Positions 34,014 through 36,761 of a stretch of DNA of 64,000 nucleotides are shown here, piece after piece. This DNA is from Acidobacteriota bacterium (GTDB lineage Bacteria > Acidobacteriota > Terriglobia > Terriglobales > Acidobacteriaceae). Numbering within the stretch: position 1 is the first letter of the stretch; every line of letters begins with the position of its first letter. Below the pieces are notes generated by a model that worked only from the letters and a program-made list of their open reading frames with translations, was not told where the DNA came from and searched no databases. Made by a program: the position numbers and the translations under genes. The stretch lies in contig JABCZI010000004.1 in NCBI GenBank assembly GCA_013289765.1, forward strand, positions 186,001-250,000, in the 5' to 3' direction.

Positions 34014-36761
34014 TTAAGTTCCCAAGAGCGAGTCTACAACGGTGTAAGCCTCGTTCAGCGCGGAGTCCAGAGCGGCGGCGTCTTTTCCGCCGGCTTCAGC
34101 CAGGTCGGGACGGCCTCCGCCCTTGCCGCCGACTTTTTGCGCGACGGGGCCGATGACTTTGCCCGCCTGCACTCGGGCGGTCAAATCTTTCGTGACGCCG
34201 ACAATTAGCGAAACGCTTCCGTTCGACGCCGAGCCCAGTACGACGACACCCGAGCCGATTTTGTCGCGCAGTTGGTCGACTAGCGTGCGGAGCTGGGCGC
34301 GCTCGAGATTATCCACGCGATGGGCGAGAACTTTCACGCCTTTCACGTCTTTTATTTTTTCGCTGATGTTTGCGGTGCTTGACGATGCCGACTTCATCCG
34401 TGCCTGATCGAGTTCCCGCGCCAGGCGCTTGATCTCGGCGTCTTTCTTTTCCATCTCGGCCTTCAGCGATTGCATGGGAGATTCGGTGTCGGAATGAGCG
34501 GCTACGCTGGCGACAAAGTTTTCCAGTTGGTGATCTTTGCGGAAGTGGGCGAGCGATCCCTCGCCGGTAACCGCCTCTACGCGCCGCACGCCCGACGAGA
34601 CGCTTCCCTCTTTCAGAATTTTGATCAGGCCGATCTCACCGGTTGCGGATGTATGCGTGCCGCCGCAGAGTTCGGTGGAGAAGTCGCCGATCCGCACCAC
34701 GCGCACCTTGTCGCCATACTTTTCGCCGAACAGCGCCATGGCGTGATACTGGTTGATGGCCTCGTCAATGGGAACGTCGGTAAGAGTTTCGACTTTCAGA
34801 TTGCGCAGGACTTCCTTATTAATGATGTCTTCAATGTCCTGCAACTCTTCGTCTTCAACCGCGGTGAAATGCGAAAAATCGAAGCGAAGATGATTCGGCG
34901 CAACCAGCGATCCCGCTTGCTTCACATGCTTGCCGAGAACTTCGCGTAGGCCTGCGTGCAGAAGATGCGTCGCGGTGTGATTGCGCATGGTCGATTGGCG
35001 GATGTCGGCGTTGACAACCGCATCGACTTTGTCGCCAACGCGGACTGGCTGCTTTGCCACTACCTGATGCGCGCGCACGCCCTGGATGGGCGAATAGCAT
35101 CCGGTGACTTCGGCGACGATGGTGTTGTGGTCGTCGGAGTAGAACCATCCTTTATCGCCGACCTGTCCGCCAGAGTCGGCGTAGAACGGCGTATGGTCGA
35201 GAATTACTTCGCCGTTGTCGCCGGGCCTGAGTTCCTGTGCGCCTTGACCGTTGTGCCCGCCTGCCCTAGAAATGATCGCCAGGACTTCGCAGCCATCGGA
35301 GCGTGTCTGGCGATAGCCTTCGAAGAGCGATTTCGGGAGCTGTTGATAGGCGGGATTGGCGGTCTGCTTGGCGGCGCCCTTCCAGGAAGCGCGAGCGCGA
35401 GACTTTTGTTCGTCCATGGCACGATCGAAGCCCACTTGATCAAACTCTATTCCTTGATCGCGGGCAGAGTCCTGCATGAAGTCGAGCGGCATGCCAAAGG
35501 TGTCATACAGTTTGAAGGCTTCTTCGCCCGCGAACTTATCGCCAGACTGTTTCAGCAGAGCCTCGAGCTTTTCAAGACCGACGTCGAGCGTGTGCGCGAA
35601 CCGGGTTTCTTCAGCAAGAACTTCCTGAGAGACACGGTGAGCGGTTTCGTTCAGTTCTGGATACGCGTCCTGCATGAGGTCGCGAACTTTGAAGACCATC
35701 TCGTGGAGGAATGGCTTTGTCTGGCCGAGCAGGCGGCCATGCGTGATGGCGCGGCGAATAATCTTGCGCAGTACATATCCGCGGCCCTCGTTCGAGGGCG
35801 TTACTCCATCTGAAATCAAGAAAGTCGCGGCACGGGAGTGGTCGGCGATTACTCGGAGGGAAGCGGCCGACTTGTGGATGGGAGAGCCTGCCGAGCTTTG
35901 CTCCGCATGGACGACCGGGGGGACTGTCCCTACATGAGCGGTGGTTGTGCCTGTCAATTCGGCGGCGCGCTTGATCAGCGGCTTGAATAAGTCAGTATCG
36001 TAATTTGAAATCACGCCTTGCAAAACCGCTGTCACTCGTTCGAGGCCCATGCCCGTGTCGATTGAAGGCTTGGGCAGCGGATTCAGTTTGCCGCTCGAAT
36101 CGCGGTCGAACTGCATGAAGACCAGATTCCAGATCTCGACATAGCGGCCGCAGTCGCAGGTGAAGGCGCAATCGGTGTGTCCTTGTTCAGACGCCGCCGG
36201 GCCCATATCGTAGTGAATCTCACTGCATGGGCCGCAGGGGCCGGTGTCACCCATCTGCCAGAAATTGTCTTTCAGGCCCATCTCGAAAATTCGATCTTTC
36301 GGAACACCCTGCGCGGCCCACAGATCGTAGGCTTCGGCGTCGCGCTGCATGCCGCCTTCGCCGTTGAAGACGGTGACGTAGAGCTTGCCCTTATCAATCC
36401 CAAACCACTCCTTCGAAGTAATCAACTCCCACGCATATGCGATGGCGTCCTTCTTGAAGTAATCGCCGAAGGAAAAATTTCCCAGCATTTCGAAGAAGGT
36501 GTGGTGGCGGTTGGTGAAGCCGACATTTTCCAGATCGTTGTGCTTGCCGCCGGCGCGCACGCATTTCTGCGAGGTGGTGGCGCGGGAGTAGTCGCGCTTC
36601 TCGAGGCCGAGGAAAACGTCTTTGAACTGATTCATGCCCGCGTTAGTGAACAACAACGTGGGATCATTCGCCGGAACCAGCGACGACGAGTGCACCTCTT
36701 TGTGACCCTGCTGCACAAAAAAGTCGAGAAACTTGCGGCGGATTTGAGAGCCAGTCAACAT
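34014..36761 (-). CDS. alaS: Alanyl-tRNA synthetase
   Basis: A 915-residue class II synthetase that charges tRNA-Ala. The catalytic core is intact: the N-terminal [22 protein letters not shown] stretch, [18 protein letters not shown], and motif 3 GMGLERV (residues 237-243). The editing domain shows [14 protein letters not shown] and CGGTH zinc ligands, and a C-terminal DHHA1-like part has [14 protein letters not shown]. It is slightly longer than the E. coli enzyme (876 residues), partly because of a ~22-residue insertion at about residues 275-297, exactly where a palindromic repeat lies in the DNA. It follows the LEA-like gene (separated by a terminator) in a minus-strand run with recX and pilT. 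Confidence 0.95.
35887..35939 (-). repeat. Palindromic repeat element inserted in the alaS coding sequence
   Basis: On the minus strand the element begins CTCATGTAGGGACAG, continues with GGTCGTCCATGC and ends GAGCAAAGCTCGGC. It matches the copy at 47911-47961 at both ends and resembles that at 21829-21876. It encodes the extra [17 protein letters not shown] stretch of AlaRS. Confidence 0.6.

Follow-up and report, generated by a model that had tools for sequence, protein, structure and literature searches.

An alanyl-tRNA synthetase loop in an Acidobacteriota bacterium carries an in-frame palindrome resembling RAYT-associated REP elements

REP-associated tyrosine transposases (RAYTs) are single-strand HUH transposases. 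Palindromes carried in frame within genes are best known from Rickettsia, where they have no known mover; the locus described here ties such palindromes to a family with a transposase that can be named. The main-text parts of Di Nocera 2013 (PMC3733652) set GTAG-headed REPs, which often occur with RAYTs, apart from CGTC-tagged repeats, including the Rickettsia palindromic elements (RPEs); the RPEs of R. conorii carry the CGTC tag, and CGTC repeats are described there as lacking an associated transposase. The same parts report REPs inside ORFs of several species, tRNA synthetases included, and mention Acidobacteria in connection with tyrosine transposases that have terminal inverted repeats. 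Three Acidobacteriota are listed in a table within the portion of PMC12306157 considered here. A literature search, with most subscription journals outside its scope, listed no paper describing REPs read in frame in the alaS of acidobacteria.

The 64,000-nt stretch of DNA that we analyzed (the window) carries on its minus strand an intact alaS ORF (34014–36761) for an alanyl-tRNA synthetase (AlaRS) of 915 residues, which scores above the NCBIfam alaS cut-off. The genome (4.80 Mb, 97.6% complete) has no other full AlaRS match; a second match, at 26% identity, is confined to residues 518–905. Within alaS, a palindromic copy at 35886–35941 (minus strand), with a GTAG head and partly decayed hairpins, is translated in frame as 19 residues (274–292). 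We consider it very probable that this extra stretch is a REP element of a family dispersed through the genus (family 1), copied in by a RAYT in the manner proposed below. The first-pass annotation of the window had likewise read it as a palindromic repeat absorbed in frame, and a covariance model built without alaS (R1) bears this out, detecting the copy at 40.8 bits with a whole-genome E of 5.8e-7. The annotation had also counted 22 extra residues, a figure that stands against E. coli AlaRS (3hxu), which shows a 22-residue gap opposite the insert in a phmmer alignment, but not against related genera: within the bacterial family but outside the genus, 21 of 29 loci lack the insert and have a segment of 43 residues, compared with 55 in this AlaRS, hence a net gain of 12. 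The other loci have segments of 37 (L400), 45 (L374, L377, L393), 46 (L398), 47 (L381), 55 (L378), and 62 (L389) residues. Directly upstream of alaS, at 36925–37211, lie repeats with 33- and 99-nt spacing.

R1 was built from 19 copies collected by pattern and BLAST searches of this genome and comprises two hairpins with 15 pairs. Where the first-pass annotation knew of three copies, R1 finds at least 87 in the genome at E < 1e-3, the alaS copy among them (rank 60 among the matches listed), and at least 109 at E ≤ 10; these are lower bounds, with 150 of 2600 candidates scored. In the family-1 unit of ~56 bp, a GTGG/GTAG head is accompanied by two hairpins, one formed by GGACAGCC/GGCTGTCC and the other rich in GC. 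Among the 87 own copies listed, the head is GTGG in 51, GTAG in 14, another sequence in 4, and unread in 18, so that the commoner head is GTGG and not the canonical GTAG. According to the parts of PMC8266576 considered here, a Marinomonas REP substrate with GTGG is cleaved, at lower efficiency, and the dependence of cleavage on GTAG varies among three systems. Eight relatives, some of them without an alaS insert, each have 3 to 114 R1 matches at E ≤ 1e-9; in this genome and in these relatives, family 1 is thus a short palindrome dispersed in many copies, as REPs are.

Two further family-1 copies lie in the window. The one at 47908–47963 (minus strand) retains both hairpins and scores 71.7 bits with R1, but it is among the model's own 19 sequences; it was placed between genes by the first-pass annotation and is absent from the set that we scored as in-frame. 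The other, at 21825–21880 (plus strand, 38 bits), lies in frame within an ORF assigned by family match to DUF4015, a putative glycosyl hydrolase (20818–22578, plus strand).

Across the genome, family 1 is mainly extragenic, as is typical of REPs, if the 76 of 87 own copies listed that were not scored as in-frame are taken together. The other 11 lie in frame in ORFs, as judged from codon scores on both flanks. Ten of the hosts have Pfam or NCBIfam matches (PcrA/UvrD, hydantoinase A, LipB, a cysteine desulfurase-like protein, UbiD, DUF1385, the DUF4015 protein of the window, AlaRS, SelA, and MutS2), and the eleventh, a 118-residue ORF without a Pfam match, may be spurious. Since L012, L018, and L024, all within genes, were among the 19 copies used to build R1, their recovery as in-frame copies follows in part from how the model was made. 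One sense frame, of the HVGTAA type, is used by 8 of the 11 (binomial 1.8e-4), another sense frame by two, and an antisense frame by one, although any of the six could be read through in 57–79 of the 87 copies listed. The range of hosts recalls the intragenic GTAG and CGTC REPs of Di Nocera 2013 (PMC3733652), which occupy ORFs of unrelated proteins such as tRNA synthetases, UvrD/REP helicases, and DNA repair proteins; unlike here, the main-text parts of that study mention Acidobacteria just for their tyrosine transposases, and neither alaS nor LipB occurs in them. In-frame REPs are already known in other bacteria and look frequent in the genus studied here.

The first-pass annotation had proposed modeling the protein around the insert. 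In an AlphaFold2 model computed from 44 rows (mean pLDDT 85.8, pTM 0.59), residues 281–292 form the sole stretch of at least three residues with pLDDT below 50, placed between the predicted helices 260–270 and 294–317. The model thus predicts that the loop bearing the insert is disordered, and this loop would be solvent-exposed.

Same-genus tblastn matches to alaS break near residues 270, 408, and 757 in many of 45 genomes. At the insert site (site A), 11 of the 37 readable rows in a 43-row same-genus alignment carry R1 matches: the genome studied here, G001, G012, G015, G019, G020, G022, G024, G029, G031, and G035. Loci L110 (44.8 bits) and L113 also have R1 matches at this loop. Copies in both orientations are found at E < 1e-3 in seven rows (G012, G015, G019, G020, G024, G029, and G035), this state resting in G012 on an E of 7.6e-4; the inverted copy of G001 is weak (E 0.019), G022 has an inverted copy alone, and our genome and G031 have a direct copy alone at E < 1e-3. 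The alaS copies of relatives reach 75 bits with R1, that of G031 is nearly intact, and those of G001 and G012 have GGGACGG-type stem variants. Our own copy is a decayed palindrome of 68% GC, with two mismatches in its best 8-bp stem. The loops of the readable non-carrier rows are short or unlike the insert. Within one genus, then, the same loop of an essential enzyme can be compared when it is empty and when it holds one copy, an inverted copy, or a pair, which makes it possible to measure what such inserts cost, how they decay, and whether they are put to use.

Outside the genus, the 55-residue loop of L378 (G071), which contains TAHVEPGLRPGETGQSP, is insert-like and gives a weak R1 match (20.6 bits); it is possibly a decayed family-1 copy. 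In L374, also of another genus, R1 matches a tail fragment at 11.8 bits. At the insert site, the Bryobacterales and other phyla sampled have short loops, as does E. coli, and the loops of L115, L122, and L124 are longer but unlike the insert; R1 finds nothing over 9.1 bits in L112, L114–L124, L126–L130, L151, and E. coli (L159). The alignment of relatives that the first-pass annotation called for contains no case, in other orders, of the same residues without likeness to the repeat.

A comparable loop exists in LipB. Near its residue 145, family-1-like DNA is present in 13 of 30 genomes as judged by eye, whereas 11 have an unrelated TCATCCCGAGCG sequence that contains a palindrome of its own, two (G001 and G039) a GGACGGACG palindrome beside family-1-like pieces, and one (G012) a different sequence again; G007 lacks an insert, and LipB is cut off in the remaining two (G009 and G043). 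This loop is a hot spot, holding unrelated palindromes in different species (L273–L302). At a second variable place, near residue 100, R1 matches occur in G004 and G001 and, weakly, in G022.

Y1 transposases occur in 21 of 21 same-genus genomes tested, including our own, which has six Pfam matches, five of them above the cut-off. An R1 match at E < 1e-3 accompanies only 2 of 33 sampled Y1 loci, at distances of 1.26 kb and ~120 bp, and a tie of family 1 to all Y1 transposases was rejected on this count. Crossing the Y1 survey with the R1 counts of relatives singled out one RAYT subgroup. Its orthologues, at ≥74% identity, have R1 copies within ~35 bp on both sides, in one fixed orientation, at 7 of 7 loci (G015, G002, G023, G001, G022, G005, and G042); the upstream R1 copy of L349 is interrupted by a contig end. 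The two subgroup RAYTs tested score above the NF047646 (REP_Tyr_transpos) cut-off, as do the L360 and L339 genes of our own genome, with L351 just under it (79.9 vs 80). Among the other 23 loci of RAYT relatives, R1 matches lie clearly on both sides in L350 and L351, weakly on both sides in L372, L355, and L354, and in other or one-sided arrangements in L353, L358, L364, and L368; 14 of all 30 loci have no R1 match at E ≤ 0.1. The association of family 1 is with one RAYT subgroup.

The arrangement typical of REPs, a RAYT gene flanked by copies, is thus present in relatives and not in our own genome (L360). In this genome (97.6% complete) we found no close relative of the family-1-flanked RAYT; the nearest RAYT, at C8:211564–212004, is 50% identical and has other palindromes beside it. 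The diverged RAYT genes L352 and L360 have their own, different palindromes nearby, which suggests that transposase and palindrome are paired.

Family 1 resembles the known REP/RAYT systems (REPtrons and REPINs) in being a short dispersed palindrome with inverted pairs and a head that may be called GTAG-like, in having a REP-associated tyrosine transposase gene with copies near both sides, and in that some more distant RAYTs lie beside different palindromes. It differs from them in its two-hairpin unit of ~56 bp, in the predominance of GTGG over GTAG, in that about a tenth of its copies in our genome are intragenic, and in that no close cognate RAYT was found there. Judged from these sequence features, the alaS palindrome would be a REP/RAYT element with RPE-like behavior. 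We propose that a family-1 element was copied by a RAYT, with this alaS or one from which it descends or was acquired as the target, and that about ten loop residues were lost during or after insertion. The insert may owe its survival to leaving the reading frame intact and free of new stop codons and to encoding a small flexible peptide within a disordered loop between two helices; our own alaS copy would have decayed afterwards. Given this decay and the lack of a close RAYT in the genome, the copy looks like a fossil. At the alaS site itself we saw no target duplication, no precise empty site, and no ongoing insertion, and the element stands in place of loop residues instead of splitting the loop cleanly.

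A chance likeness, with an alanine- and GC-rich loop having grown by slippage, would suit the degenerate state and high GC content of our own copy, but near-intact copies stand in the alaS of relatives, and the whole-genome E of the R1 match leaves little room for coincidence. The insert also aligns with the repeat at 47911–47961, to which the first-pass annotation had likened it, with a score of 51 over ~53 nt, whereas the top score among 2296 other window tiles is 36, in the tile that holds the third copy, and the next, from an unrelated tile, is 33. On the E value and the tile scores we rejected chance likeness, which we regard as extremely improbable. Barely better placed, and still very unlikely, is that the element is a true Rickettsia-type palindromic element with a CGTC tag. 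The first-pass comparison with Rickettsia captures the behavior well, since in both cases in-frame palindromes are tolerated in functional, even essential, genes, but it does not extend to the type of element: 65 of the 87 copies listed have GTGG or GTAG heads and the family flanks a RAYT gene, whereas RPEs are CGTC-tagged and, in the parts of PMC3733652 cited above, such repeats are without a known transposase. Membership among the RPEs was rejected on the heads and the flanked RAYT.

A more serious contender, to which we give somewhat less than an even chance, does without a REP insertion in this lineage: a relative's alaS allele would have been recombined in, or a single ancient insertion, which may have been of an inverted pair, would have been followed by many losses. 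Several carriers have the residues beyond the element (AGSPxHK) in common, for which common descent or allele exchange is as good an explanation as repeated insertion; the rows closest to our AlaRS in the core trees (G026 and G043 in one, G038 in another) lack the insert, and the insert-like loop of L378 lies in another genus. In an alignment of the core without the insert columns, the 12 carriers require 10 changes, of which the starred branches of these weakly supported trees force only two. These counts were made with nine alaS fragments set aside; L110 has no state in them and is among the ungrouped rows. More than one event is nevertheless suggested by the direct-only, inverted-only, and paired copies and by the stem variants of G001 and G012, although partial loss of a pair would also produce the different orientations. 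A quick tree rejects the grouping of the 11 direct-orientation carriers in one clade (AU p 0.001; L110 and L130 also set aside), a result that recombination would fit as well. Repeated insertion, loss, and allele exchange all appear compatible with the trees, which do not tell them apart.

With insertion of a REP element by a RAYT as the preferred reading, the notable aspect of the alaS palindrome is recurrence in the same loops. Near alaS residue 757, many relatives have a palindrome of a second family (CCCACCC...GGATGGGG), and the place near residue 572 is similar in several of them, as judged by eye. A BLAST search with the residue-757 segment of G044 gives, at E ≤ 0.1, 27 further matches in G044 and 12 in our own genome, where two of them bracket the Y1 gene at C1:239304–239600 as a 47-nt inverted repeat with 98% complementarity. 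A loose-pattern search for this second family in the window and our own loci returned mostly noise. We see about equal odds for and against the broader view that, across this genus, palindromes of several unrelated families, two or more of which flank RAYT-type transposase genes, have time and again entered the same small set of permissive loops in essential proteins (three places in AlaRS and two in LipB), which would make REPs a continuing source of in-frame protein segments.

Some further repeats and inserts were observed. At locus L339 (C1:238200–240800 of our genome), the gene of a REP-associated tyrosine transposase lies between 47-nt inverted repeats that belong to the second family. 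Near alaS residue 408, L078, L084, L085, and other relatives are extended in frame by up to ~120 residues whose composition is helix-like, and R1 finds no match in these inserts; our own AlaRS has just two residues there. In the window, at 24993–25129, two 48-nt copies that are 94% alike and have the core GTGTGGGGACGGGC start 89 bp apart.
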